A program made the position numbers and the translations under genes. A DNA stretch of 49,594 bases from Verrucomicrobiota bacterium (GTDB lineage: Bacteria > Verrucomicrobiota > Verrucomicrobiia > Verrucomicrobiales > DEV007): positions 1 through 49,594 of the forward strand of contig JAHDID010000044.1 of assembly GCA_020630975.1 (NCBI GenBank). The letters are read 5' to 3'. This document shows, one piece after another, positions 2,154 through 22,795 of the stretch. The notes below the pieces were generated by a model. It had not been told where the DNA came from. It did not search any database and saw nothing but the letters and a program-made list of their open reading frames with translations. Within the stretch, counting starts at the first letter, position 1. Every line of letters begins with the position of its first letter.

Positions 2154-5100
2154 ATGACATTGCGGTTTTTTATCTTGGTTTCGCTATTCGCGATTGGTTC
2201 GGGGTTTGGGCAGATATCGGTGGTGCCTGCGGTGCTGGTAGAGGATACGAAGTATCAGGTTTTTCAGGAAGGGCGGAGATCTACCGGGGCATTGGCAAAT
2301 TTTCGGCTGCATTTGGATTATTATTCGAAATCCGAGGCACAGATTAGCGTGGGTGAGCGGGATATTGCATTGCCGCTAGGTGAGCACAGGCTGGATCTGA
2401 GCTACGAGCATTTGCCCAGTCAGGAGGGCGTGATTCATGCGGTAGTCGGTAGTAAAGAACTTTTCAGAGAGAGTGTTCCTAGTTTGAACAGCAGTCCGGC
2501 TGATTTTGTCTCCGAGGAATCGGTCCTCGATTTGGGTGGGGATTTCACTGCCTGGGTACGCTTTAAGGCGGCGGAACAAGGCAGTGGCACTTTGCTCTCA
2601 AAGTGTCGGCCCGGTGCGGTGAAATGGGTGCCTGATGCTAAGGCTCTGTTTATCCGCAACGGTAGACTGGTTTATGATATCGGTTGGGTTGGGGCTTTGG
2701 CTGCTGGCCCAAAGGTAACGGACGGGCAATGGCACGAGGTGGTGCTGATCTGTGCTGAAGGGCAGGCGGAGCTATATCTGGATGGTAGGTCTATAGGAAA
2801 AAGAAAAAACTTTAGTCGTAAAGACAAAAAAGATTTTGTGTTTAAGATCGGTAAGGCTGCTAGTGACTTTGCCGGGGACCTGCAGGATTGCGAGATCTCA
2901 GGGCTGCGCTATTGGAGTCGGGCTGTGGCGGGGGGCGAGCTGTCATCACTCGTCGGTGGGGAGCTGGAGGCTGTGAATACTCCCGATCTAAACTGGAGCG
3001 GCCAAGCTAAAGACCCTGCTAGTGCACCGGTCGAGAGTTTTTCTGGTAGGGGGCAGGTGGGGATACCAGTCGCGGTGCGATTATCCTCTACTGATGGGTT
3101 TGAGATCAAGCAGGCATGGGTCCAGCCTCTGGAGATGGTCGATCACGCCGAGATGATTAGCAACTGGAGCGAAGACTCTCTGCATGAGGGTAGAAAGATA
3201 TACCAGATGTTATGCGTCACGTGTCATGGCGATCGCGAGCAAGAGGGGAGTATACCGATGGCGATGAAGTTTCACTCTGGAGTGTTTAAAAACGGTAGTG
3301 ATCCGTACCGGATCTATCAAACTTTGGATAAGGGCTATGGTATGATGGTAGCTCAGCCGCAATATTCACCCCAACAGAAGTACGCTCTGATTCATTACAT
3401 CCGCGAGGAGTTTCTGCGTAGTGATAATCGTGAGCAGTGCTTCGAGATAACAGATGAGTACCTGGCTTCTTTGCCCAAGGGCTTGAAGACAGTTAGCCAA
3501 GCTAAAGGAGTCGATCTTGAGTCTCTCAAGCCTTATGAGAAGATGGATTTTGGCCCGGCTTTGATGTGGACTTATCAGGTCGACGGAGAAGGAGGAAGAA
3601 AAGCGAATCCCAATATCGCTCAAAAAGGTATCAACATCCGTCTCGATGCAGGACCCGGTGGGGTATCTAAGGGTGATACCTGGATGATCTACGAAACGGA
3701 TACGATGCGTGTCGCCGCAGCCTATCATGGGGATTTCGTGGATTGGCGAGGTATCGCATTCGATGGATCTCATGGTAGTCATACCCGTATCGTAGGGGAA
3801 ACTCTTTTCACATCTGAGGATGCTCCTGCGTGGCAGAATCCGAAAACTGGGAGCTGGCAAGACGATCGCATTGTAGGTCGGGATGGTCGCCGCTATGGGC
3901 CTATGTCTGAGGGCTGGATTCGGTATCGAGGTATGTATTATCAGGGTGATGAGATACCGGTGCTGCACTACCAGGTAGGTGAAGTAGAAATTCTAGAACG
4001 GCCTGGGTTGATCGACTATGGCGATGCGAGTGTTTTTACTAGGACGCTGAATGTAGACGAGTCCGCGCACGATCTGGTGGCGAATTTAGCACCAAATCAA
4101 GACTCTCTTTCAGTGTTGCTAAACGCGCCTGACGGAGTACGGGTGGACCGGTCGGGGGCGACGATTCAATTACATATCCCTGCCGCTACGGCTCCGGCGA
4201 AAATACTATTAGGTTTTACCTCAGCTGCGGAAGAGTCGGTGGCTGGCCTGTTGGGTGAACCTGCTGATCTATTTGATTTGACTCAGGGTGGGGCGAGTCG
4301 TTTTGCCGAACAGGGGATCACGGTGACCGGTCAGCTCGGTGCTGAGGGAAAAGCTTTTGCCGTGGATACTATCCCAGTGCCTAATAAACAGCTAAACCGG
4401 TGGAATGCGTGGATGCGTTTGGGTGGATTCGATTTCTTTTCTTCGAATCCCGATCGAGCGGCTGTATGCACTTGGTTGGGAGACGTGTGGCTGGTCGATG
4501 GGGTATCGGGCGATCTGAGCAAGGTCACTTGGAGGAGAATCTGTACGGGGCTTTTTCAGCCTTTGGGTTTGAAGATCGTCGATGATCAGATCTATGTCAC
4601 TTGTCGTGATCAGATCGCCCGTCTACACGATCTCAATGGTGATGATGAGATTGATTATGTCGAGTGTTTCAATCATCACCCTCAGGTCACGGAGCACTTT
4701 CATGAGTTTGCTATGGGGCTACAGACCGATGAGGAGGGGAATTTTTATTACGCCAAGTCGGCTCGCCATGCTAAGAAGGCCGTGGTCCCTCATCATGGTA
4801 CCTTGTTGCGGGTGAGTCCTGATGGGAAGCGGACCGATATTGTCGCGACCGGCTTTCGCGCGGCAAATGGTGTTTGTGTGAATCCTGATGGCACTTGGAT
4901 CGTGACGGATCAAGAAGGTCATTGGAATCCTAAGAATCGCATCAACTATGTCCGTGAGGGTGGATTTTATGGTAATATGTTTGGCTACCATGATGTGACC
5001 GATGAGTCGGACGCGGCTATGGATCAGCCACTGTGTTGGATCACGAATGCGTTCGACCGTTCGCCAGCGGAATTGGTGTGGGTGCCAGAGGATGCAGCAT

Positions 5101-5654
5101 GGGGTAGCCTAAATGGTAGATTGCTGAATCTCAGCTATGGCTACGGTCAGATCTATACTGTCCCGCACGAGGTGCTGGCAGATGGTCAGGCTCAGGGCGG
5201 TATGTGTGCGCTACCGATCGATAGGCTGCCGACGGGGATTCATCGTGGTCGGTTTCATCCAGAGAATGGTCAGCTATATGGGGTAGGTATGTTTGCTTGG
5301 GCAGGCTCTCAAAAGGAGGATGGCGGCTTCTTTAGAGTCCGGGCTACTGGGAAATCGGCGTGGCAGCCGGTGAAGACTCAGGCGAGAGACGGAAAGTATG
5401 TGATTACATTTAGCGATGAGCTGCCGAAAAGTGGCAAGTTTACGATTAAGACATGGGATCTGAAGCGGACCGAGCGCTATGGATCGAAGCATTTTAATGA
5501 AAAAGAACTCACTTTAGCGAGCTATACGATCTTGGGGAATCAAGTGACTTTGGTTGTGCCTGATTTGAGGCCTACGATGGGAATGGAGATCCGGTGTGAG
5601 TTTTCCAATGGAATAGAGCGGGTGATCCATAGCTCGATTCACTCGGTTCAGTGA
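2154..5654 (+). CDS. Secreted LamG-like / c-type cytochrome / DUF6797 / beta-propeller multidomain protein
   Basis: This 1166-residue protein starts with a signal peptide (hydrophobic stretch 3-18, FGQ cleavage region). A concanavalin/LamG-like domain follows at about 115-260 (FTAWVRFKA, DGQWHEVVLICAEG, ELYLDGRSIG). A single-heme cytochrome c domain has CVTCH at 354-358 and a candidate axial Met near 397-398 (GYGMMVAQP). Next comes a region matching DUF6797 (GPALMWTYQV, DFVDWRGIAFDGSHGSHTRI). The C-terminal part resembles the six-bladed propeller of sorbosone/glucose-dehydrogenase-like proteins (ADGQAQGG, GFRAANGVCVNPDGTWIVTD). Such fusions are typical of Planctomycetes and Verrucomicrobia and are thought to be periplasmic oxidoreductases. 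It follows the hydrolase by 22 bases and ends 8 bases from the convergent DUF1552 gene. The substrate is unknown. Confidence 0.8.
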   Translation: MTLRFFILVSLFAIGSGFGQISVVPAVLVEDTKYQVFQEGRRSTGALANFRLHLDYYSKSEAQISVGERDIALPLGEHRLDLSYEHLPSQEGVIHAVVGSKELFRESVPSLNSSPADFVSEESVLDLGGDFTAWVRFKAAEQGSGTLLSKCRPGAVKWVPDAKALFIRNGRLVYDIGWVGALAAGPKVTDGQWHEVVLICAEGQAELYLDGRSIGKRKNFSRKDKKDFVFKIGKAASDFAGDLQDCEISGLRYWSRAVAGGELSSLVGGELEAVNTPDLNWSGQAKDPASAPVESFSGRGQVGIPVAVRLSSTDGFEIKQAWVQPLEMVDHAEMISNWSEDSLHEGRKIYQMLCVTCHGDREQEGSIPMAMKFHSGVFKNGSDPYRIYQTLDKGYGMMVAQPQYSPQQKYALIHYIREEFLRSDNREQCFEITDEYLASLPKGLKTVSQAKGVDLESLKPYEKMDFGPALMWTYQVDGEGGRKANPNIAQKGINIRLDAGPGGVSKGDTWMIYETDTMRVAAAYHGDFVDWRGIAFDGSHGSHTRIVGETLFTSEDAPAWQNPKTGSWQDDRIVGRDGRRYGPMSEGWIRYRGMYYQGDEIPVLHYQVGEVEILERPGLIDYGDASVFTRTLNVDESAHDLVANLAPNQDSLSVLLNAPDGVRVDRSGATIQLHIPAATAPAKILLGFTSAAEESVAGLLGEPADLFDLTQGGASRFAEQGITVTGQLGAEGKAFAVDTIPVPNKQLNRWNAWMRLGGFDFFSSNPDRAAVCTWLGDVWLVDGVSGDLSKVTWRRICTGLFQPLGLKIVDDQIYVTCRDQIARLHDLNGDDEIDYVECFNHHPQVTEHFHEFAMGLQTDEEGNFYYAKSARHAKKAVVPHHGTLLRVSPDGKRTDIVATGFRAANGVCVNPDGTWIVTDQEGHWNPKNRINYVREGGFYGNMFGYHDVTDESDAAMDQPLCWITNAFDRSPAELVWVPEDAAWGSLNGRLLNLSYGYGQIYTVPHEVLADGQAQGGMCALPIDRLPTGIHRGRFHPENGQLYGVGMFAWAGSQKEDGGFFRVRATGKSAWQPVKTQARDGKYVITFSDELPKSGKFTIKTWDLKRTERYGSKHFNEKELTLASYTILGNQVTLVVPDLRPTMGMEIRCEFSNGIERVIHSSIHSVQ

Positions 5655-6959: not shown

Positions 6960-9518
6960 TTATTCTGGTGTATCGGCTCTACGGAAAATAGGGTGGTTTA
7001 CGATGGCAAAAATCAGGTCGCCTATCTTTTCATGATTGGCGGCGGCGCCTTCGCACAGTTGGTCGATGGCTTGTTGGTCGGCGAATTCGATATGTCGCCC
7101 TAACCCGTAGGATAGTAGACCTTCGGTGATGGAGCGGGTCAGCAGATGCTTGTGCTCGAGTAGGCCGGTTCGGAATTCGTCGAGATTGTGGAAGGTGCGA
7201 TCGGTATGAGGAAAGGTCCCTTCGGCACGTATAGCTATCTGAGTGGATTGTTTTTTCGATTTTGAGTTCTTTTTGCCGACATCGCCGATGGTCTCTTTAT
7301 CTCGCCACTGGCCGAGTAGGTCAAAGTTTTCCAAGCCAAAGCCGAGTGGGTCGAAGCTACTATGACAGGACGCACACTGCGTCTTTTCGCGGTGGAGATC
7401 GATGATCTCGCGCACGGATAGTGGTGTGTCGCTAGCTAGGGCGAGCTCGGGTACATTCGGTGGTGGTGGCGAGGGTTCGCGATGGAGGAATTTTTCCATC
7501 AATAGAGCGCCGCGAATGATGGGCGAGGAGCGCTCGCCATTGGAACCCATGGTGAGAAAGGCTGTGGTGCCGATGAAACCGCCGCGAGGCGACTCGGGGG
7601 GAAGTGACATCTGGATGAAATCGCTACCCTGGCCTGGGGGCTCCATATCGTAATGAAATGCGAGTAGGTCATTGATGACCGTGTAGTCAGAATCGATCAG
7701 ATCGGTGAGGCTACGGTTGTCCTTGACCATGGTGTGGAATAGATGCTGAGCCTCCAGTCGAGCCGACTCACGGATGCCGTTATTCCAGCCGATGTGATCG
7801 GCTTCATTGATAGCGATTTCATCGAAGCGCTTCAGATCTGCCCAGTGGCTAAAGAACCCCTCTGCGAGTGCCCAGCTGTGCGGGGACTTTAGCATGGTAT
7901 CCACGGTGTGGCGGAGCTGCTTGGGGTTTGCGAGCTTCCCCTGAGCGGCAGCTCGCAGTAGTCTACCATTGGCCGGTCGGCTCCAGAGAAAGTAGGAGAT
8001 CCGATTGGCGTACTCGGCATCGCTCACGCTCTGGTTATCATCGGTGGGGGAGTCTTCCATGATGTAGAGGAAGCTCGGAGAGCTGAGGATCATCGCCAGT
8101 GGGGTGACGAGCGATTCTTTGACTGAGCGGCCGTGGTCGCGGTTCATCTGGTAGATCTTGAGCACGCGATCCACATAGTCGGTATCTGGATTGCGATAGC
8201 GAAAAGCAGCTCGCATGAAGTTGACTAGGAAGCGCTTGGCTTCCTGGCTTTCGTCTTGGTAATCCGGCTTGCCTAGGGTCTTTAGATAAGAGGCTTCGAA
8301 AAACGACGATCTCCTGTCGTAGAAAGGCCCCTCCACTTCTAGGCTGTCCACCCAGATGGATGAGGACCACTCGGCTTTGTGATTTACCTTTTTCAGGTAG
8401 GCGCCGAGGCTGATATTACCTCTGTTTTCGGATAGGTTAAATCCTGCTCGATCATCGCTGAGGTGGGCGCGATACTCCATCTCATGGATGCTGGGTTTTT
8501 CTAAACTGCCGTCGACTCGAAAGTATCCAACGGTCCTTTCACCGACTCGACATTTGAGAAAGTGGCGAATCGGTGGCGTGTCCTGAGCCAGAGCAGCAGT
8601 GAATCGAAATCGATAGGTACCTCGTGGATCAATATTTGGCCGTGGAGATCCGACTGAATAAGAGCTGCTACCCGCGTCGAAAAGAAACAGCCCTCGATCG
8701 GCGTACGGGCGCTGTAGGTAGCGCTGCCGACTGCCTGCACGGCCATCGTAGCGGCGCACAAATAGCTGCAGTTGTTTTTCATCCTCGATACCTATTTCAT
8801 CGTGTGTGGCACCGGCTTTGATTTTTGCCATCTTAGCATCATAGTCTGCGATATAGTTTTTTAGGTGCGCATTGGTTCGTGTCTCTGGTTCGCTTATGTG
8901 GTGTTTGGCATCGACTCTGGGCTGATCCACCCACTGCAGAGCTATCTCTACGATCGATTTGGCGGTTTTCTGATAATCACTGAAGTGGTAGCTGGAGAAC
9001 TGTTGATCCTGGCCCACCGTGTCATACCCCTCAGCGATGTCATCGGGCGGTAGTAGCTCTACCGGGACCCGCAGGCCAAACAGCTCGTCGATAGTGTTTC
9101 GGTACTCGCGACTATTGATACGACGCAGTGCGGTGTCGCCACCGGACTCGGAGAGGCGTTCTTTCGACTCGGCTAGCGCCTCGGTGAGATGGGTGAGCAC
9201 TTGCTGGAGGTCTACTGGGGTAGGGGCAGGCTCATCCTCGGGGGGCATTTCGCCGAGATTCAGTACATCTAGGACTTCCTGCCAGTGCAGGGCAGTGTCG
9301 CTATTGGAGATGGCCAAGCTGAGCGTGTCTAGTCGTGTCTCGCCCTTCTGTTTCTTTGGGCCATGACATCGGGTACAATGCTCCTCGATGAATCCATCCA
9401 AAATCTCAGGATCAAGCTGAACTCCCAACGATTCAGCATGGACTGATGGCAAGAGGGTGGCTCCTATCACAGCAAAGACGAAAAGGCGGCTGGTAGATGA
9501 GATAAGCGTACGGATCAT
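6960..9518 (-). CDS. Planctomycete-type cytochrome protein with DUF1587/DUF1592/DUF1588/DUF1585 domains
   Basis: This 852-residue exported protein has a Sec signal (cleavage near SVHA-ES, residue 28). A PSD1-type heme motif CTRCH lies at 48-52, followed by GPKKQKGETRLDTL. The middle carries RRINSREYRNTIDELFGL (DUF1587-like), then EAKRFLVNFMRAAFRYRNP and NRISYFLWSRPANGRLL (DUF1595/DUF1592-like). DUF1588-like sequence includes a second CASCH at 715-719 (CHSSFDPLGFGLENFD), and the C-terminal LLTRSITEGLLSYGLGR is DUF1585-like. The two CxxCH motifs suggest covalently bound heme and an electron-transfer or oxidase role in the periplasm; this is inference. A purine-rich RBS (AAGTAAGGA) sits just before the ATG. 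It is the first gene of a two-gene operon with DUF1552. Confidence 0.88.
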   Translation of the reverse strand: MIRTLISSTSRLFVFAVIGATLLPSVHAESLGVQLDPEILDGFIEEHCTRCHGPKKQKGETRLDTLSLAISNSDTALHWQEVLDVLNLGEMPPEDEPAPTPVDLQQVLTHLTEALAESKERLSESGGDTALRRINSREYRNTIDELFGLRVPVELLPPDDIAEGYDTVGQDQQFSSYHFSDYQKTAKSIVEIALQWVDQPRVDAKHHISEPETRTNAHLKNYIADYDAKMAKIKAGATHDEIGIEDEKQLQLFVRRYDGRAGSRQRYLQRPYADRGLFLFDAGSSSYSVGSPRPNIDPRGTYRFRFTAALAQDTPPIRHFLKCRVGERTVGYFRVDGSLEKPSIHEMEYRAHLSDDRAGFNLSENRGNISLGAYLKKVNHKAEWSSSIWVDSLEVEGPFYDRRSSFFEASYLKTLGKPDYQDESQEAKRFLVNFMRAAFRYRNPDTDYVDRVLKIYQMNRDHGRSVKESLVTPLAMILSSPSFLYIMEDSPTDDNQSVSDAEYANRISYFLWSRPANGRLLRAAAQGKLANPKQLRHTVDTMLKSPHSWALAEGFFSHWADLKRFDEIAINEADHIGWNNGIRESARLEAQHLFHTMVKDNRSLTDLIDSDYTVINDLLAFHYDMEPPGQGSDFIQMSLPPESPRGGFIGTTAFLTMGSNGERSSPIIRGALLMEKFLHREPSPPPPNVPELALASDTPLSVREIIDLHREKTQCASCHSSFDPLGFGLENFDLLGQWRDKETIGDVGKKNSKSKKQSTQIAIRAEGTFPHTDRTFHNLDEFRTGLLEHKHLLTRSITEGLLSYGLGRHIEFADQQAIDQLCEGAAANHEKIGDLIFAIVNHPIFRRADTPE

Positions 9519-13043: not shown

Positions 13044-15083
13044 TTAGCTCACCCGCTGGCCGGGCACGGCACCGGAGTCAGGACTGAGCAGATAGATCTC
13101 GTCTTTGCCTGGGCCGGCGGCGATGACCATGCCTTCGCTGACGCCGAATTTCATCTTTCTCGGAGCGAGATTGGCGACCATGACGACTAGCTTGCCCTCT
13201 AGATCCTCTGGCTTGTAGGCGGCTTTGATTCCGGCGAAGACATTGCGGGTCTCATCGCCTCCTAGAGAGAGAGTTAGCTGGACGAGCTTGTTGGCTTTGG
13301 GAACCTCGTTGGCCTCCACTACGCGAGCGACGCGGAGGTCGAGTTTGGCGAAATCGTCGAAAGAGATCTCTGGCTGAATCGGCTCGGCATCGAGAGCATC
13401 GCTGCTGTCATCCCAGCTGCCTGCAGCGGCATTGAGCTTGGCCTCTGCTGCTGCGGCTTCTTTGCCAGCCTCGATCATGGCTTCGATCTTGGCGGGATCG
13501 ACTCGCTGCACGAGGTGCTTGAATTTGTTAAGCGTCTTGCCTGTTACAGGTGTCTTGGCCTGATCCCAGCTGGTGAGAGGCTCGTCAAAGAGGGTGCTGA
13601 CTTTCTCGGTGATACCGGGGATGACTGGGCCGAGGTAGATGGCTAGTTGGCGGAAGAGATTGAGCGCTACAGTGCAGACATCTTGCAGCTCTTGAGCTTT
13701 GGTCTCGTCTTTCTTCAGTTCCCATGGGGCATTCTCCTCCACATAGGGATTGGCCAGGTCGGCGAGTTCGATGATGGCGCGGGTGGCTTTGCTGAAGTCT
13801 CCTGCCTCGTAGTGGGCAGCGATGTCATCTCCTGCCTTGGCGAATTTTTCGAATAGTCCTCCATCGTCTGGGTAGGTGTCGGATAGGCCGGTCTTGGCCA
13901 CGAATTTGGCCGAGCGGCTGGCTATATTCACCACTTTGCCGACCAGTTCGCTATTCACGCGAGTGGCGAATTCCTCCAGATTCAGATCGATGTCTTCGAT
14001 CCTGGAGTTCAGCTTGGTCGCGTAGTAGTAGCGGAGGTAGGTCGGATCGAGGTGATCCAGGTAGCTGGTCGCGCGGACGAAGGTGCCCTTGGATTTGGAC
14101 ATCTTTTCTCCATCCACGGTCAGAAAGCCGTGGATACGCACTTTCGCCGGTAGCTGGAAGTCTCCAGCCTCGAGCATGGCTGGCCAGAGGATGGTGTGAA
14201 AGTAGGTGATGTCCTTGCCGATGAAGTGGTGGATCTCGCAGTCCTCATTGCGCCACCAGGCGTCGAGTTCTTCGCCGTTGGCTTTGCACCACTGGTGGGT
14301 GGTGGCGATGTAGCCGATCGGGGCATCGTACCAGACATACCAGTAGTTGCCTTCGAAGTCTGGGATCTCAAAGCCGAAGTAGGGGCCCGGACGCGATAAG
14401 TCTTTCTGCTTGAGAGGCTCGTGTAGGTAGGAGCCTTTCAGCTGGTTGACGGTCTGCTCAGGGAGCGTGTCGTCGTCGATCCAGTTGGCGATGGTGTCGC
14501 GAGCTTTCTCCACGTCGATGAATTTGTGTGGCGTCCTACGCAGCTCAGGTGTGGAGTTGGAAATTTGACTGATAGGATCGATCAGCTCGGTGGCCTCGTA
14601 GACGGCATCGCACTTTGAGCAATTGTCGCCTGGCTGGTCTTTGCTGCCACAGTTGGGGCAGGTGCCGCGGATGAAGCGATCGGCGAGGTAGACGCCCTTT
14701 TCTGTATCGAAAAACTGCTCCACATCCTCGGTGACGATCAGCCCAGCTTTGTTGAGCCCCTCCCAGATGTCTGCGCACAGTGCGCGGTTTTCATCGCTGT
14801 GGGTGCTGCCGTATTGGTCAAACTCGATGCCAAAGCCGGCAAAGTCGGCCTGATGCGCCTGGCTCATCTCGGTGATCACATCGATCTCGCTGCGCTTTTC
14901 GGCCTGCGCTCGGAGTGTGATGGCTGCACCATGGGTGTCATCTGCGCAGATGTAGATGCAGCGATTGCCGCGCATCTTTTGAAAGCGCACCCAGATATCG
15001 GTCTGGATGTACTCCACGAGGTGACCGATGTGGATATGCCCATTGGCGTAGGGGAGAGCGGATGTCACTAAAATCTGTCGCAT
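13044..15083 (-). CDS. metG: Methionyl-tRNA synthetase with C-terminal tRNA-binding domain
   Basis: This 679-residue cytosolic enzyme charges tRNA-Met. It shows the class I signature [11 protein letters not shown] (HIGH at 18-21), a zinc-binding insertion with Cys142, Cys145, Cys155 and Cys158, the methionine-pocket segment [10 protein letters not shown] and the KMSKS loop at 327-331. The anticodon-binding helical domain follows. The last 110 residues or so ([20 protein letters not shown] to the end) form an EMAP/Trbp111-type tRNA-binding and dimerisation domain. Length and order fit the E. coli-like long form. The ATG at 15083 sits directly before the core fold. Confidence 0.96.
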
Positions 15084-15254
15084 TGGCTGGAAACGTAAAA
15101 CCGTAGTGCAGAGTTAGGCCTGAATACTTTTTTTTCAACAGCCACCTTATGAGGCTTGTATTTTCCCCCAAGATCGGCTTACATGATTTGACGCGAGAGA
15201 GAAGAGTACACCACCTATTGCGCCTATGAAGGCGTGACTCTGAATTCAAGCAGC

Positions 15255-17783
15255 ATGAGTAAATCCGATACCGATCGATCCCCCGGAGGTGCCGAGCCAG
15301 AGGACTCTGGAGCTAAGAGCGAGGGGTCTCGACCAGTTCGGCAGCCTGCGGGCTACGCCTATCAGGTGAAGCGATATAACGCCATGTCCATCGACCGCGA
15401 TGTACTCGGCGTCATCGCCAGCCGTTATTTGGCCATGCCTGAGCACCCCGGTGTGGTGACCTTGCGCGATTATCAGTTCGCGGAGAGTCCGTACCAGATC
15501 GTGTTCGACTACCATCGTGCGCAGCGCATGGATGCGATCAGTCTGCCAGTGGAGGAGAGCGAGGCATGGGCATTGATTTTGAGCCTAGCGGAAAGCATGG
15601 GCCATGCGCACAAGCATGGTGTGGTCCACTGCAGTATCCATCCGGGAAATCTGATCCTCGAAGATGCACCGAAGGAGGATGCAGATGCGGATAGCCAGCG
15701 GCAGAGGATCGTTTGTGTTGAGGGATTTTGTAACGGGCTAATCGGTGATTTTCACCATTTTGAGCTGAATGAGAGCTGCTACTTTGGGGCGCCAGAGCAG
15801 CTATCGTGTATGGGGGGGATCTATGGAGATGGTCGCGCTGAGCGATGGGATGTTTACAGCTTTGGTGTGGTGGCATTTTGGCTGCTCCATGGCAGATTAC
15901 CGCGTGGAGGAGCCTATCATCGCCAGTACCACGAACAGGTGCAGGCTGCCGAGGGGCGTCCTGTAGCGATCGATGCTGGGGCGCTAGCCAGTACCATGGC
16001 AGAGGAAAGGGAAGTCGAATGGGATCCCGCAATCGGGACTGGTAGGAATGAAAAAGCCTACCGTGAGCTGATCGAGTCTTGCCTGCAGCTAGATCCGCTG
16101 AAGCGCCCGATTGATATGCGCGAGGTGCATCAGATGTTCTGCGATCTGGTGAAGGAATTTCAAATCTTAGATACCGTCGACCGTGCGGCGGAGGCGATAC
16201 AGGATGCTGAGAGTCGCGTGACGACTGAGAAAAAGAGGCAGAAAGGCAAGCTGATCACAGCTAGAGCGTCGGCTACGATCTTGGCGGCTTCCTTCTTCGT
16301 GGCTTGTTATTTTCTATACGATTACTTCGAGAAGACTCGTGAGACGCGATCTAAGCTGGTCGAGCTAGATCAGGAGATCGCCAACCATAAAGCTCACATC
16401 AGTATCCTAGGTGAGCGTGTGCGGTCTACGGAGGGGGAGCTGGCAGAGTCTCGCAGAGCTGCGGATGAGTCGTTTTACACGATGACTCAGTCGGTAGCAG
16501 GGACGAAGGATGCGAAGGCTCTGAATAAGCGTTTGGAAAAGTCCAAGGCCTATTACCTCGATATCCTGAAAGAAGTTAGCGAGACCACCGGGGCAGATGA
16601 TGAGACTGGGCGTGCGCTACATAGTTTGGCTCATATCGAGCAGAGACTGGGGCAGCACGATATAGCCAAAGGGCATTTCCAAGATGCGACCAATGCGTTG
16701 GAGCGTGCGCTGGAAGACGATAAGTTTGCTGGAGATACTGAGGTGTATCAGGATGCACTGCTGCGCCTAGCTGATAGCTATGAGAGTATGGCTGATCTGT
16801 GTGCGATCCCCGATGGTGTCGAGGCTATTGCATCCCTGAAGCGAGCGGCAGATTATTTCAAAACCGTCCTCAAATCGGAGCCGGAGGATGTCGTGTCGGC
16901 CAGTCGCCTGTCGGGCATAGGGTTTCGTCTGGGGTTGGCTCTGGTGCAGCATGAGCGCTACGAGGATGCGCTGGACTCCTATACCGAGGCTGCTACACAG
17001 CTGGTCGGACTACGAGCGCAGGCACCCAGCACGGATAGCAATGAGTCGCTTCGCTACTGTAGGGAGATTGCTCAGCTACAGTATTACGCCGGACTGGCTT
17101 TGGAGAAGTTGGACCGAGGTCCAGAGGCGACTAGGTCCTATCTAGCGGCTATCGAGTCCGTAGAGGATCTAAAGGGGCACGATGTGGAGTCGCCGGCGCT
17201 GACATTGCTGTTGGCGAGGTGTTTCCTGCACATTGGCCACAATTTCGATGACCTAGAGGGAGTCGATGGAGGTGATCGAGGGCAGGTCTACAATGAAGCT
17301 CTCCGTCTGATCTCACCCTTGCAGGAAGAGATTCCAGGGAGTGTGGAGATAGCCGAGGTGCATAGCCGAGTACTGGCCGAGCTGGCGCTGATGGAAGCGC
17401 CTCGTATCCTAGGGAGCAAGGGCAGTTATCATCTCTCGAAAGAAAGTGTGCTGACACTGGTGACTGCTCTCGATGAGAATAAAGACCACCTCGAGGGGCA
17501 TTTGTTTTTGGCTGAGGCTCGACTGAAGCATTTACGCAATCTAGATGGCAAGGATACCGATGCTCGCTACGTGTCGCTGAAAGGCGTGGAAGTAGCTGCT
17601 CATGCGAGAAAGTTGTTCTTAGACTCTGCTGACGGGATGTGTGCACCTAAGCGTAAACGGATTCATTTGCAGTTGCGCGATATCTTCCTTGCCTATGGAG
17701 AGATATGCACCGAGCTGGGGCAGGAGGATGCGGCTTCTGATTGTGCTGAGTTTGCCTCTTTTACTCTGACATCCAATGAGTAA
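15255..17783 (+). CDS. Membrane-anchored protein pseudokinase with C-terminal TPR-like repeat domain
   Basis: I start at ATG 15255; an in-frame GTG at 15234 is the alternative. Residues 30-290 or so have a protein-kinase fold: a possible beta-3 lysine (YQVKRY, Lys39), HPGVVTLRDY, the catalytic-loop equivalent HCSIHPGN (125-132), GAPE (178-181) and the alpha-F segment RWDVYSFGVVAFWLLHGRLP (Asp199). The catalytic Asp of HRD is Ser127 and the loop Lys is His129. The DFG position appears to read EGF (156-158), and no glycine-rich loop is visible. A single membrane segment lies near 334-358. A coiled coil and about 420 residues of helical TPR-like repeats follow (IEQRLGQHDIAKGHFQDATN, LALVQHERYEDALDSYTEAA). 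Catalysis is unlikely; a scaffold or sensor across the inner membrane is inferred. It lies upstream of the coiled-coil and type I secretion genes. Confidence 0.8.
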   Translation: MSKSDTDRSPGGAEPEDSGAKSEGSRPVRQPAGYAYQVKRYNAMSIDRDVLGVIASRYLAMPEHPGVVTLRDYQFAESPYQIVFDYHRAQRMDAISLPVEESEAWALILSLAESMGHAHKHGVVHCSIHPGNLILEDAPKEDADADSQRQRIVCVEGFCNGLIGDFHHFELNESCYFGAPEQLSCMGGIYGDGRAERWDVYSFGVVAFWLLHGRLPRGGAYHRQYHEQVQAAEGRPVAIDAGALASTMAEEREVEWDPAIGTGRNEKAYRELIESCLQLDPLKRPIDMREVHQMFCDLVKEFQILDTVDRAAEAIQDAESRVTTEKKRQKGKLITARASATILAASFFVACYFLYDYFEKTRETRSKLVELDQEIANHKAHISILGERVRSTEGELAESRRAADESFYTMTQSVAGTKDAKALNKRLEKSKAYYLDILKEVSETTGADDETGRALHSLAHIEQRLGQHDIAKGHFQDATNALERALEDDKFAGDTEVYQDALLRLADSYESMADLCAIPDGVEAIASLKRAADYFKTVLKSEPEDVVSASRLSGIGFRLGLALVQHERYEDALDSYTEAATQLVGLRAQAPSTDSNESLRYCREIAQLQYYAGLALEKLDRGPEATRSYLAAIESVEDLKGHDVESPALTLLLARCFLHIGHNFDDLEGVDGGDRGQVYNEALRLISPLQEEIPGSVEIAEVHSRVLAELALMEAPRILGSKGSYHLSKESVLTLVTALDENKDHLEGHLFLAEARLKHLRNLDGKDTDARYVSLKGVEVAAHARKLFLDSADGMCAPKRKRIHLQLRDIFLAYGEICTELGQEDAASDCAEFASFTLTSNE

Positions 17784-17809
17784 ACGGCTTGGCATCTTGC
17801 TGAGATATT

Positions 17810-17952: not shown

Positions 17953-18975
17953 ATGAGCCAACTGGACAAAGTCGAACAAGCTCTCGAAGAGTATGGGTAC
18001 TCTCAAAAAGGCAAAGGCGGGCGTGTCGCATTGATTGTTATGTCGCTCCTATTAGTCCTGATAGTGGGGGCGGCCGGTTGGTTGGGGCTGCAGTGGAGCT
18101 CTACCAAGGCAAGGGCTCTGCAAGCTGAGCAGTCACTGCTCAGTGTCGGGCAGCGGTTGAGTGAGATGGAGATTCAGAATTCGGAGCTGTCCGCACAGCT
18201 GGCTGATAAGCAGACCGAAATCGAGCGACTCCGACAGGAGTGGACTAGTCAGGTGGCCCAGCTGGAGACTGAGCATAAGGAGCAGATGCAGCGTACCTAC
18301 GCGCGGATGAATCAAATCGTGTATGATAGTAAAGAGACCCTCACCTACATCGAGGATATCGAGTCGCGCCTGCGCAGCGGCGAGCAGATCAGCCGCGAGC
18401 AGGCTGCTGAGCTGGCTAGTGTGGCCAATGGCTTGGCGCTGCTAAAAGAGAAGTACAAGAAGCCTATGGCAGAGTTCCGCGAGCTGGATCAGTACTTTAA
18501 AAGACAGCTGTCGACTCTCTCTACCTCGAGTAGCCCGACTTCTTATGCTGTGGCGACGCCGGTGCGGACAGGGGGAGAAGATCCTAGGGAGACGGCAGGT
18601 TTGTTCAAAAAGATCTTCCAGAATAAGAAGTTTCAAGCCGAGCGAGATGCTTACTTAGAAGAAAAGGGTAAGGAGCGAGGGATTGCTCAGGGGGTAGCCG
18701 AGGGGCGTGCTCAGGGGATCGAGGTGGGGAAGCGGGAAGCGCTAACTCAGGCCCAGCAAGTGGTGCGCAATGCCTATGCCAGAGCTCAGCGCCAGATGGG
18801 CGAGCTGTCGATCGATATGGACCGCTATGTCGTTCAGTTAGAGAGACTATCCCAGCAAGAAGGCGCAAACGCTGCTGAGATCGAGGCTTTCTTCGAGACC
18901 TCTAAGCAGATTCTCCAAATCCATACTGAAGTGATGGGGACGGAGCCGACCCGAGTGGAGGCTGTTCGTCCATAG
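17953..18975 (+). CDS. Single-pass membrane coiled-coil protein, unknown function
   Basis: I do not recognise this 340-residue protein. A short acidic N-terminus is followed by one membrane helix at about 25-45 and a long coiled coil at about 50-180 (SEMEIQNSELSAQLADKQTE, QEWTSQVAQLETEHKEQMQR). A Ser/Thr-rich linker and a second helical region complete it. Residues 243-262 form a striking tetrad repeat with glycine every fourth position (GIAQ GVAE GRAQ GIEV GKRE). It sits between the pseudokinase gene and the type I secretion ABC/adaptor genes on the same strand, with 169- and 189-base gaps, so it may be a structural partner of either. No catalytic motif is visible. Confidence 0.7.
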   Translation: MSQLDKVEQALEEYGYSQKGKGGRVALIVMSLLLVLIVGAAGWLGLQWSSTKARALQAEQSLLSVGQRLSEMEIQNSELSAQLADKQTEIERLRQEWTSQVAQLETEHKEQMQRTYARMNQIVYDSKETLTYIEDIESRLRSGEQISREQAAELASVANGLALLKEKYKKPMAEFRELDQYFKRQLSTLSTSSSPTSYAVATPVRTGGEDPRETAGLFKKIFQNKKFQAERDAYLEEKGKERGIAQGVAEGRAQGIEVGKREALTQAQQVVRNAYARAQRQMGELSIDMDRYVVQLERLSQQEGANAAEIEAFFETSKQILQIHTEVMGTEPTRVEAVRP

Positions 18976-19164: not shown

Positions 19165-21471
19165 ATGTCCCGCCAAACAGACGACCCCCTTTTGAACGCC
19201 TTGGTGTTCTTCGGCAAGCTACATTCTCAGGCTGTGAATCCACACGGTGCTGTGCAGGGCCTGCCGTTGACAGATGGCCGGCTGACGCCTGAGCTTTTCC
19301 CTAGAGCGGCGGCTCGCAGTGGTTTTGACTCGCGTATGGTGAAACGGTCTCTGAGCGAGCTGCATAGCGCGACTCTACCTGCGATCCTCATCCTAAAGAG
19401 TAACGATGCGGTGATCGCTACCCAGATTGGCAAAGGCCGCAAAGCGACAGCAGAAATCATAGTCCTGTCGGTCGGGACTGGCGCTCAGGTTGTCGATTTG
19501 AAGAAGCTTGAGGAATCGTACTCGGGCTATGCGATCCTCATCAAGCCTACGTTTAAGTTCGAAAAGCGTTCGGACTTTCAGGGCAAGACCATGGGCAAGA
19601 ACTGGTTTTGGGGTACCCTTTGGCGATTTAGAAGTTTTTACGCACGGGTGGCATTGGCCACTTTGATGATCAACATCTTAGCTCTTTCGTCATCGATCTT
19701 TATCATGACGGTCTATGACCGAGTGGTACCGAATAAGGCGGTCGACACTTTGATGGTACTAGCTCTAGGTGTCGGTATCGCTTACCTCTTTGAGTTCACT
19801 CTGAAGATGCTGCGTAGCTACTTCGTCGATCGAGCAGGGCATCGTATCGATATGCATCTGGGTAGTGAGCTGTTTGCTCGTATGCTGGGGATGCAGTTTG
19901 GCAAGCGACCTGCCTCTGCGGGATCGTTAGCGAGCCAGGCGCGAGCTTATGATTCTCTGCGCGAGTTTTTTACGAGTGCGACCTTGGCGGCGTTGGTAGA
20001 TTTGCCGTTTATCCTTTTGTTTGCGGTGGTGATATTCATGCTCGGTGGAGCGATGGTCACGGTGCCGCTTTTGGTCGGTGTGTTTATGGTCTTGGCGATT
20101 GGAGCGCTTATGCAGTTCCCCATCGCTAGAGCGGTAAACGCGAGTTATAATGCGGCCAACCAGCGCCAAGCTCTCGTCGTGGAGGGTATCCAAGCTCTGG
20201 AGACGATCAAGACCACTCGCTCAGAGAGCGAACTGCAGTCTCGCATGGAAGAGGCTGTGCGTGTGACGGCCAAAGCCGATGGCGCATCTAGAGGATTCTC
20301 TCAGTTTGCTCTAAACTCGACAGGATTGATCAATCACATGGTGCAGATGTTTATGGTGATCATGGCATTCTATCAAGTGATCGAGGGCAATATGACGATG
20401 GGCGCGATGATCGCCTGTGTGATGCTGACGGGGCGTGCCATGGCTCCTATGGCGATGGTCGCGTCTCTGATCTCGCGTCTGCAGCAGTCTCGCCGGTCTC
20501 TAAAAGGTCTAAATCAGATCATGTCGACTCCGGTCGAGCGTGGCGACCGCGACGCTCAGTACATCACAGTCGAAGACTTTTCACCCACTATCGTAGCTCA
20601 TGAGGCATCCTTTGCCTACAGTGAGGAAGCGGAGCCAGTGGTGAAGGAGTTGGAATTTTCCATCAATCCTGGTGAGCGCGTAGCCATATTGGGCAGCATC
20701 GGTTCGGGTAAAAGTACGCTTCTGCGCATGCTCATGGGACTGTATCACCCCACTGGTGGGCGTATCGATATCTCGGGTATCGATCTGCGTCAGCTGGATC
20801 CTACCGATCTGCGGATGAGCACTGGCTATGTGCCGCAGAATCCCACTTTACTATACGGTACGATTCGCTCGAACCTGAAGGCAGGTTGTCCGTGGCTGAG
20901 CGACGATGCCATCGTGAAGGCTCTTGATCGAGCTGGGCTAGGCGAGTTCATCAATAGTCTGCCTAACGGTGTCGAATATGAGATCAGTGAAGGCGGTAAT
21001 ACCCTTTCTGGTGGGCAGCGTCAGGCACTGTCGGTGGCTCGCGCTCTAGTGGAGGAGCCCACTATGCTGATCATGGATGAGCCCACTAGTGCTATGGATC
21101 TATCCAGCGAGCGCAGACTGCTGGCCTCTCTGAAGCAATATATGGAGGATGATCCTCAGCGGACCATGGTGATCGCGACTCACAAGCGTTCTGTCCTGGG
21201 GCTGGTCGACCGTATCATCGTGATGGATAAAGGCCGCATCATCGCAGATGGCCCTCGGGACAAGGTTTTGAAAAAGACAGGAGACTCCTCGTCTCAGCAG
21301 GCTAAGTCCGCTCCACAGCCAGCGCTGCCCAAGCAAATGGCTGCTGGTGCAGCAGGTGATGCTGCGGCCCAGTCATCTGCGGGCAGCCCCTTTCAGCAGA
21401 TGACGAACGCCGATCTGCCTGCGGTAAGACAGAGGCAGGATACCCCTGCCGAGACCGCGCTGCCACGATGA
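19165..21471 (+). CDS. Type I secretion ABC transporter (LapB-like, degenerate C39 domain)
   Basis: This 768-residue protein is an inner-membrane export ATPase of the HlyB/LapB class. Residues 1-130 or so resemble the C39-peptidase-like domain (LNALVFFGKLHSQAVNP, AILILKSNDAVIAT) but show no catalytic cysteine in the usual place. The permease helices lie at about 160-430 (SSIFIMTVYDRVVPNKAVDT is a family hallmark). The nucleotide-binding domain has a Walker A with Lys516 (GSIGSGKST), LSGGQ at 614-618, and Walker B MLIMDEPTSA with Asp638 and Glu639. The tail after about 715 is Ala/Gln/Pro-rich. The HlyD-type adaptor follows 58 bases later. The type is known to export large RTX adhesins; the substrate here is not in the window. 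Confidence 0.9.
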   Translation: MSRQTDDPLLNALVFFGKLHSQAVNPHGAVQGLPLTDGRLTPELFPRAAARSGFDSRMVKRSLSELHSATLPAILILKSNDAVIATQIGKGRKATAEIIVLSVGTGAQVVDLKKLEESYSGYAILIKPTFKFEKRSDFQGKTMGKNWFWGTLWRFRSFYARVALATLMINILALSSSIFIMTVYDRVVPNKAVDTLMVLALGVGIAYLFEFTLKMLRSYFVDRAGHRIDMHLGSELFARMLGMQFGKRPASAGSLASQARAYDSLREFFTSATLAALVDLPFILLFAVVIFMLGGAMVTVPLLVGVFMVLAIGALMQFPIARAVNASYNAANQRQALVVEGIQALETIKTTRSESELQSRMEEAVRVTAKADGASRGFSQFALNSTGLINHMVQMFMVIMAFYQVIEGNMTMGAMIACVMLTGRAMAPMAMVASLISRLQQSRRSLKGLNQIMSTPVERGDRDAQYITVEDFSPTIVAHEASFAYSEEAEPVVKELEFSINPGERVAILGSIGSGKSTLLRMLMGLYHPTGGRIDISGIDLRQLDPTDLRMSTGYVPQNPTLLYGTIRSNLKAGCPWLSDDAIVKALDRAGLGEFINSLPNGVEYEISEGGNTLSGGQRQALSVARALVEEPTMLIMDEPTSAMDLSSERRLLASLKQYMEDDPQRTMVIATHKRSVLGLVDRIIVMDKGRIIADGPRDKVLKKTGDSSSQQAKSAPQPALPKQMAAGAAGDAAAQSSAGSPFQQMTNADLPAVRQRQDTPAETALPR

Positions 21472-21529
21472 TAGGCTAGAAACTGATAAGTCTGAAACTT
21501 TACCTGAGATCCCCCCAACAATTTGACTG

Positions 21530-22795
21530 ATGAATCCAAGCAATGAAATGATGCCGCCCCCTGAGCAGCCTAGTCCAAAAGACAAGCCTGATAAAAGGGC
21601 TCTAAAGGCTGAGGAGCTGGACTTTGTGCGCGACTCACGCAAGGCGCTGCATGGTGATAAGATCCGCGGTGCCAATCTGCTGTTATTTTTGATCACAGCT
21701 ATTTTGATCGGCTTTGTCGTATGGGCTGCTTATGCCGATATCGACGAGGTCACCAAAGGAGAGGGAAAAGTGATCCCATCGACTTCTATCAAAACGATCC
21801 AAAACCTCGAGGGTGGTATCGTAGCCGACATCGTGATCCGTGAGGGTCAGAAGGTGACGAAGAATGATGTGCTGATCCGTATCGATGATACCAAGCGGGC
21901 ATCCAATTACCGGGAGATGCTCGCTCGCCAGGAAGCTCTGCGTGCGACTCTAGCTCGTCTCGATGCTGAGGCGACAGATAAAGGAGCGGTCACCTTTCCT
22001 AAGGACATTTTGGATAAGCGCCCAGACCTGGTAGAGCGCGAGCAGGCTCTCTTCGCAAAGCGTGTCGGTGAGCGAGATAAGCAGATGAATGTGCTGGTCC
22101 GGAGCCGTAGCTTGGCGAAAGAAGAGCTGGCGATGACTATCCCTCTCGTACAAAAGCGGATCGTCTCAAAGGTAGAGCAGATTCGCCTCGATCGTGATCT
22201 GAACGAGATCGAAGGAAAGATAGAGGAGCTCGTGGGTGGTTTTCAGCAGGCTGCTATGGAGCTGCGGAATGAAGCTCAGAATGAGCTGGAAGGAATCAAC
22301 GAGACGATCAAAGGTGGTGAAGATGAGGTGAAGCGTGCTGTGGTGCGCTCGCCGGTGACTGGTATCGTGAACAAAATCTATGTTTCCACGATCGGTGGTG
22401 TGATCGGTCCTGGTGAGCCTATCGTCGACATCGTGCCAGAGGATGACACGCTCGTCGTGGAGGCAAAGATCAGCCCATCTGACATCGCATTTCTACGCCC
22501 ACAGCAGGAGGCGGTGCTGAAGTTCACGGCTTATGATTTCTCCATCTACGGAGGACTGAAGGGCGAGGTGATGCACATCAGTGCTGACACCATCCAAGAC
22601 GAGGTGGACCAGCAGCACTACTATATGATCAAAGTGCGGAATACCGGTGGTAAGCTGATGAAGGATGGCAAAGAGCTACCCATCATCCCTGGTATGATCG
22701 CATCGGTCGACGTGCTGACCGGTCGCAGGACGGTGCTGCAGTATATTACCAAGCCATTCCACCGGATGCGCTTTAATGCGCTACGCGAGCGCTAA
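21530..22795 (+). CDS. HlyD/LapC-family type I secretion membrane fusion protein
   Basis: The 421-residue adaptor has a Pro/Lys-rich cytosolic N-terminus, one membrane helix at 50-67 (LLLFLITAILIGFVVWAAYA), and the start of a lipoyl domain (GKVIPSTSIKTIQNLEGGIV). A long periplasmic hairpin coiled coil follows (about 120-270), then the second lipoyl half (KRAVVRSPVTGIVNKIYVST) and a beta-barrel ending in GMIASVDVLTGRRTVLQYIT, a family signature. It would link the ABC protein encoded 58 bases upstream to an outer-membrane TolC-like channel that must be encoded elsewhere. It ends 18 bases from the convergent MBL gene. Confidence 0.92.
   Translation: MNPSNEMMPPPEQPSPKDKPDKRALKAEELDFVRDSRKALHGDKIRGANLLLFLITAILIGFVVWAAYADIDEVTKGEGKVIPSTSIKTIQNLEGGIVADIVIREGQKVTKNDVLIRIDDTKRASNYREMLARQEALRATLARLDAEATDKGAVTFPKDILDKRPDLVEREQALFAKRVGERDKQMNVLVRSRSLAKEELAMTIPLVQKRIVSKVEQIRLDRDLNEIEGKIEELVGGFQQAAMELRNEAQNELEGINETIKGGEDEVKRAVVRSPVTGIVNKIYVSTIGGVIGPGEPIVDIVPEDDTLVVEAKISPSDIAFLRPQQEAVLKFTAYDFSIYGGLKGEVMHISADTIQDEVDQQHYYMIKVRNTGGKLMKDGKELPIIPGMIASVDVLTGRRTVLQYITKPFHRMRFNALRER

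Follow-up and report, generated by a model that had tools for sequence, protein, structure and literature searches.

The stretch of Verrucomicrobiales DNA analysed here (49,594 nucleotides, referred to below as the window) encodes a protein of 842 residues, numbered throughout from the ATG at 15255, in which a degenerate kinase domain is joined by one predicted membrane helix to a long array of tetratricopeptide repeats (TPR). We give a probability of about 0.62 to the reading that this window protein is a nucleotide-independent, one-pass membrane pseudokinase receptor or scaffold, a member of a Verrucomicrobiales family with a kinase, membrane helix and TPR layout, and that it acts without phosphorylation. 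A preliminary description of the gene had proposed a pseudokinase joined through one membrane helix to a TPR domain, and the sequence, the conservation across the family, the structure models and the phylogeny agree with that layout. The open reading frame on the forward strand is intact to 17783, with no internal stop.

By its profile match and modelled fold, the window protein belongs to the protein kinase superfamily, with a Hanks-type fold. The Pfam Pkinase family (PF00069) matches it at E 9.7e-13 (48.5 bits against a cut-off of 31.7), and a model of the kinase domain alone, with a predicted local distance difference test score (pLDDT) of 83.8, aligns to PknA of Mycobacterium tuberculosis (4ow8) over 250 residues with Z 24.4, a root-mean-square deviation (rmsd) of 3.1 and 20% identity. 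The catalytic Asp site is occupied by Ser127, as HCSIHPGN aligns over the HRDLKPEN of solved kinases, and the HGHLHPGN of the family aligns over it likewise. The DFG site reads GFC, with Gly157 in place of the Asp found in all 16 other rows of the clade A alignment A1, and the alpha-C Glu site holds Ile54, where 10 of those 16 members have Asn and none has Glu. Gly17 of the glycine loop is replaced by Asp and Gly22 by Ser, and Gly19 is retained, as are beta3 Lys39, the APE motif at 179-181, the alpha-F Asp199 and Arg284. Among the features of an active kinase, the beta3 Lys is thus present, and the HRD Asp, the DFG Asp, the full GxGxxG loop and the alpha-C Glu are absent. Pseudokinases have been defined by the loss of at least one of the beta3 Lys, the HRD Asp and the DFG Asp (PMC12599244; papers cited by PMC number were available to us in part, and what we say of them refers to those parts), and the window protein has lost two of the three. 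The preliminary description had recognised Ser127 at the catalytic position, the lack of a clear DFG, and the retained APE and alpha-F Asp, all of which are borne out. The kept Lys39 and the Ile54 are additions to it.

The relatives found in 33 genomes of the same genus (G000-G032) form three lineages, A, B and C, all with the same layout, and the window protein is a paralogue, its own genome also carrying L031 (clade A), L058 (clade B) and L059 (clade C). Clade B (719-933 residues, two reading frames cut by contig ends omitted) has HCD in 22 of 22 sequences read, DFG in all, and the alpha-C Glu in 21 of the 21 with a letter there. The clade C proteins (911-1075 residues) have HGG, HAG or HGA in 21/21, and keep the beta3 Lys in 12/21 and the DFG Asp in 12/21. 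Clade A, including the window protein, has HGH, HGN or HCS in 18/18, with the beta3 Lys in 18/18, the DFG Asp in 17/18 and the loop Asn in 16/18; its remaining 17 members all retain the beta3 Lys and the DFG Asp, and all three loop glycines are present in the 16 that stand beside the window protein in A1. A fourth set of looser relatives, A', comes from other genera or families of Verrucomicrobiales, except L182, which belongs to a different order of the class, and shows HGN, HCN, HAN, HAS, HGQ or HGA in 20/20, together with the DFG Asp and the loop Asn (20/20 each) and the beta3 Lys (19/20). Across A, A' and C, 59 sequences were read, and the HRD Asp occurs in none. Named records that match A1 number 19 (15 Verrucomicrobiales, 1 Akkermansiaceae, 2 Verrucomicrobia or Verrucomicrobiia and 1 given just as 'bacterium'), and matches at E 1e-40 or better occur in 17 of 286 genomes drawn from the class, 16 of them, the window's own included, in the window's order. 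L168, L169 and L171-L174 are repeat readings of A' copies and add nothing to these counts. The structure alignments leave out L082 (a different protein), L076 (unread bases) and L081 (short); the partial L072 and L078 were used in alignment A2 alone, the broken L057 was not aligned, and L061 and L062 were omitted from the kinase alignments and trees. A second clade A copy in G024 (L063:2201-3331, 377 residues) stops after the kinase domain and has no TPR part.

The window copy is alone in clade A in lacking the DFG Asp and loop glycines. Among the kinase sites that are invariant in the other 16 members of A1, it breaks 5 of 8 motif positions (G17, G22, G126, L128 and D157), compared with 1 of 33 positions elsewhere (Fisher 4e-4), the motif set being named by us. 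A leave-one-out control on the other 16 rows gives a lowest p of 0.11, and is weak because just 3-4 motif positions were breakable in it. Mean identity to the rest of the family is similar for the window copy and for L031 (N-lobe 25% vs 28%, C-lobe 42% in both, TPR half 36% vs 37%). Its nearest relative shares 43% identity with it. With the pocket changes concentrated in this way and the overall divergence close to that of L031, the window copy appears to have given up the nucleotide pocket and kept the fold and the TPR half.

A single hydrophobic stretch lies at about residues 333-351, with a mean hydropathy of 1.69 (2.27 in the relative L032 and 1.31 in L031, the genome's own second copy). 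Six Lys or Arg residues among the 15 that precede this stretch favour an orientation with the kinase inside, and the TPR array is predicted to lie outside the inner membrane. The full model (mean pLDDT 79.5) has the kinase fold, a long helix that runs from residue 288 through the membrane, and helical repeats at 417-834, in line with the approximately 420 residues of TPR-like repeats first described; its confidence is low around residues 359-418. Pfam TPR_12 matches at E 7e-07 (29.8 bits, slightly below the cut-off of 30.1), and the TPR half of the model aligns to Pins (4a1s) with Z 24.2 and rmsd 5.8 over 310 residues at 12% identity. Because the kinase model aligns to PknA and the TPR half to Pins, the two-domain reading is right.

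To place the loss of the catalytic Asp, we used one unrooted tree of the 71 kinase domains longer than 200 residues, and rooted trees of 46 hand-chosen rows with ten Asp-intact, active-looking kinases of the window's own genome as the root. In the unrooted tree A, A', B and C each form one side of a branch (A' with support of 95/78). The rooted tree recovers the whole family as one clade (100/99), and the best rooted tree groups A, A' and C against B with support of 90/84, or 90/74 when the catalytic-loop and DFG columns are removed; A' is not a single clade there. As this tree unites the dead lineages, one loss of the Asp would suffice, a single loss that is not strongly supported by these sequences. 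It is possible, and we put it forward tentatively, that this is an old Verrucomicrobiales receptor family whose kinase died once and which then gave rise to three or more dead groups (A, A' and C) that kept the membrane helix and the TPR array; most members of A and A' keep the pocket and may use a nucleotide switch, and others, like the window copy, would be pure allosteric scaffolds.

Since the dead members of the family kept the protein anyway, signalling by binding rather than by phosphorylating is probable. The TPR array outside the inner membrane would bind a protein or a peptide, and this binding would alter the pairing or the posture of the helix that crosses the membrane. The inner kinase-fold domain might then change its shape or its partner, and so switch or tether another protein with no phosphorylation. 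A bound nucleotide may gate those family members whose pocket is intact, and the window copy, having lost the loop glycines and the DFG Asp, is most likely independent of nucleotide. HER3 and the JH2 domain of JAK are membrane- or receptor-bound dead kinases that regulate by contact. We claim no shared ancestry with them.

Gene neighbourhoods were compared in 33 loci (30 of A or A', 2 of B and 1 of C, several of them on short contigs). In the loci compared no neighbour is common to the whole family, as expected of a stand-alone receptor, and we rejected a family-wide operon partner because no neighbour recurs throughout. Several observations weigh against a nucleotide-independent receptor or scaffold of this kind. 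Local gene order recurs in close relatives: 9 clade A loci have a divergent gene of a single family alongside, and other neighbour families recur in 5 to 7 loci. In L051-L053, all from one genus, a gene on the same strand touches the A' gene downstream. Some lineages may therefore have a local partner. The branch on which the single loss rests has support (90/84; 90/74) under the usual mark, and for this reason two losses of the Asp may have occurred instead. The membrane helix is just modestly hydrophobic, at 1.69 and in L031 at 1.31, and it is modelled at low confidence. The branches of the window protein and L031 in the unrooted 71-domain tree are long (0.95 and 0.91), and therefore relaxed constraint, instead of a new function, may explain the changes. 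Finally, the topology, the ligand, the partner, the switching and the binding of any protein by the kinase domain are all inferred.

The alternative that survives best, unlikely as we consider it, is that the dead proteins are allosteric partners that heterodimerise with the active sister clade B or with another active kinase. B and C, each identified by a separate search of the genus genomes, are found in all 23 genomes that are at least 90% complete, and clade A in 14 of the 23 (19 of all 33); lineages A, B and C also share one layout, and the window's own genome has 16 Pkinase matches (Pfam, E 1e-6), of which 11 have an intact HxD loop (the motif pattern read 14, with L205 and L208 unresolved, and 11 keep HRD or HCD). 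However, the best match to a B query in other families with A' (G037, G040, G044, G047, G050 and G053) is the A' gene itself, and the presence there of A' and no close B speaks against an obligate pairing with B. Clade A is no commoner with B or C than without them (p 1.0), nearly all genomes having both B and C. Clades A and B share a contig, 20-37 kb apart, in 3 of the 18 genomes that have both, many contigs being short. The contigs that hold both a clade A gene and an active clade B gene are G012:C9, G026:C50 and G027:C115.

Less probable still is an unconventional enzyme, one that performs nucleotide chemistry without the HRD Asp, as the kinase pocket has been turned to AMPylation in SelO and to glutamylation in SidJ (PMC12599244). 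The retention of pocket residues in A and A' (beta3 Lys in 18/18 and 19/20, DFG Asp in 17/18 and 20/20, loop Asn in 16/18 and 20/20) in the face of an HRD Asp that is gone in all of them is what such an enzyme would show. The window copy, on the other hand, has lost the DFG Asp and two loop glycines, and the alpha-C Glu is missing too; at best, then, its relatives are enzymes. Pfam contains a SelO model, and the window protein, with nine Pfam matches up to E 0.1, has no SelO family among them.

We regard it as equally improbable that the window gene is a relic in decay, a duplicated copy with a drifting kinase half. L031, the genome's other clade A copy, keeps its pocket, the window branch is long, and a related clade A copy, L057 (G023:C121), is broken by two stops and survives in pieces; as the G023 genome is 63% complete, these stops may be an assembly error. 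Decay fits poorly with 842 codons free of stops, with motif changes that are concentrated while the APE motif, the alpha-F Asp and Arg284 remain, and with a TPR half as conserved as that of L031, whose branch is nearly as long as that of the window protein.

The preliminary description had also suggested that the protein could control the adjacent type I secretion pair, and had looked to conservation of this neighbourhood as a check; we find control of the pair very improbable. The genes are adjacent and on the same strand in the window, and clade A and HlyD lean towards occurring together: among the 33 genus genomes 9 have both, 10 clade A alone, 3 HlyD alone and 11 neither (p 0.16), and among the 23 that are at least 90% complete the counts are 7, 7, 1 and 8 (p 0.086). 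Neither test is significant, and the clade A set used in them was made by hand (E under 1e-45, taking the broken copy of G023 and the partial ones of G013 and G019 as present). Linkage is seen in none of the 33 homologue loci, where neither the coiled-coil protein nor HlyD has a match, distant ABC ATPases being found in two. In the genome of the closest relative (G024) the pseudokinase, the coiled-coil gene and the secretion pair lie on three contigs (C72, C314 and C299), and in 10 of the 19 genomes that have clade A, HlyD gives no match at E 1e-20. The units also occur apart: neither the coiled-coil gene nor a pseudokinase stands beside ABC-HlyD in the four other loci read (L186, L188, L190 and L191), and neither the secretion pair nor a pseudokinase is present in the three coiled-coil loci read (L187, L189 and L192). 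The coiled-coil gene occurs in 29/33 genus genomes and HlyD, at E 1e-20, in 12/33. A terminator-like hairpin at 17788-17804 intervenes between the genes in the window, but sites like it are not enriched over shuffled sequence, and the scan for promoters and terminators gave no clear excess either. Of the two things that the preliminary description had held would count against it together, homologues with an intact HRD and a lack of linkage to the secretion genes, the first is not found (0/59 with the Asp) and the second is.

Across the 33 loci the metG neighbour is shared solely by the closest relative, L032, and apart from this the window neighbours (Table 1) match no recurrent block of the relatives. 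Neighbours of A' genes look like housekeeping genes (Leu-tRNA synthetase, RecQ-like and others), as judged by eye from their first residues with no profile run. The coiled-coil membrane protein at 17953-18975 has weak FliH-like similarity, all of it under the cut-off. Elsewhere in the window, cytochrome c domains accompanied by DUF6797 or Planctomycete-type PSD domains are present in two large proteins, encoded at 2154-5654 and 6960-9518. In the same genome, L031:2623-4005 (G000:C64) encodes a protein with an FHA domain (E 2.4e-18), approximately 4 kb upstream of the L031 pseudokinase and on the opposite strand. In clade B, 15 of 20 loci (L083-L102) have an upstream neighbour of one protein family on the same strand, and in L086, the single locus scanned, this neighbour has a guanylate/adenylate cyclase domain (E 2.3e-08). 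Clade C has a small neighbour (124 residues and upstream in L059, L059:7512-7883) with a homologue in 18 of 20 loci (the L103-L122 set), and the two of these that were scanned have no Pfam match.

Table 1. Positions in the window of the pseudokinase-TPR gene, its parts and its neighbours, with the basis of each assignment.
Feature	Position	Strand	Basis or remark
Pseudokinase-TPR gene	15234..17783	+	ATG 15255 preferred, GTG 15234 possible; relatives start at the equivalent Met
Pseudokinase domain, about residues 8-305	15276..16169	+	Pfam, structure models, PknA fold match
Glycine-loop remnant, residues 17-22, Gly at 19 alone	15303..15320	+	Alignment
Beta3 Lys39, kept	15369..15371	+	Invariant, 17/17 in A1 and 18/18 in the wider set
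Catalytic loop HCSIHPGN, residues 125-132, Ser127 replacing Asp	15627..15650	+	Alignments
GFC replacing DFG, residues 157-159	15723..15731	+	Alignment
APE motif, residues 179-181, kept	15789..15797	+	Alignment
Single predicted membrane helix, about residues 333-357, basic N-terminal flank	16251..16325	+	Hydropathy (modest), model helix (low confidence)
Helical TPR array, residues 417-834, predicted outside the cytoplasm	16503..17756	+	Pfam, model, Pins fold match
Methionyl-tRNA synthetase-like gene, divergent neighbour, not in the system	13044..15083	-	Named from sequence, no profile run
Coiled-coil membrane protein gene, neighbour, independent elsewhere, not in the system	17953..18975	+	Genus search, loci read
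LssB-type ABC exporter and HlyD adaptor pair, neighbours, not in the system	19165..22795	+	Profile matches, loci read

The Planctomycetota and the Verrucomicrobiota belong to the same superphylum, which also includes the chlamydial host of the pseudokinase Pkn5. Ser/Thr kinases of the Planctomycetota and of the wider Planctomycetes-Verrucomicrobia-Chlamydiae (PVC) group have been described with the kinase inside, one membrane helix and a TPR array predicted outside (PMC11032199), and the window protein shares with them the N-terminal kinase domain, one membrane helix (by hydropathy) and the C-terminal TPR. That survey counted kinases as functional when they had the K, D and D sites and based its domain and tree analysis on those alone (PMC11032199); the surveyed kinases thus keep all three, whereas here the HRD Asp is gone from whole lineages. 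A cytosolic pseudokinase, one membrane helix and an outer helical domain are also combined in EssB/YukC of type VII secretion and TraF of type IV (PMC9600267, PMC13037476). YukC is reported to be unable to bind ATP and TraF is thought unlikely to do so (PMC9600267, PMC13037476), and EssB/YukC illustrates that such a layout can serve as a non-catalytic hub (PMC9600267, PMC13037476, PMC12599244). The window protein, as modelled, matches EssB/YukC in this layout only: its kinase domain keeps the APE motif and the alpha-F Asp, its TPR array is much longer, and no secretion genes are shared across the loci compared, in which no search was aimed at EssC-like genes. The YukC family (PF10140) has no match at E 0.001 in the window's genome, the window included, and matches in the control, Bacillus subtilis; EssB/YukC is not among the matches listed for the kinase and TPR fold comparisons, which show part of the matches.

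Seven bacterial pseudokinase families have been named (ActPs1-3, GLW, CP1, DYD and DLHK), with a family-wide loss of catalytic residues as seen here (PMC12599244). ActPs2 is similar in that Asn stands at the HRD Asp site and a membrane helix often follows the kinase domain, but it has Arg at the beta3 position, where Lys is kept here, and mostly a deletion of DFG (PMC12599244). The terms 'verrucomicrobi', 'planctomycet', 'TPR' and 'tetratricopeptide' are absent from the text of that paper. Chlamydial Pkn5, cited as a type III secretion effector, is likened here as a named pseudokinase by its description, with no sequence comparison (PMC8242063). The family is likewise not described in the available parts of PMC7159879, which concerns inactive kinase domains in conflict systems, or of PMC8242063. 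Our literature search returned no description of a Verrucomicrobiales pseudokinase-TPR family, which is weak evidence as subscription papers were mostly uncovered, and nothing that joins pseudokinase, tetratricopeptide and Planctomycet. Membership in a phage-defence system was also considered and rejected, as the matches are mostly restricted to the kinase part: the NCBIfam models of the defence kinases MAD6 and PglW reach 37.5 of 460 and 27.3 of 990 bits, in the kinase part alone, and the PADLOC matches to MkoA, mad6, PD-T4-6 and PglW fall mostly in the kinase region, that of MkoA stretching to residue 495.

Bacterial pseudokinases are largely unexplored by experiment (PMC12599244). The case of the type I secretion pair shows that adjacency on one contig can mislead. 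If the proposed history of the family is true, it would amount to a bacterial receptor system that rests on dead kinases, in which every good genome of one genus carries the core dead lineage C beside the active B. One genus holds the active sister lineage, dead members with an intact pocket and a dead member that has lost it, and because all three states occur together there, the path that leads from an enzyme to a scaffold is open to direct comparison, step by step.

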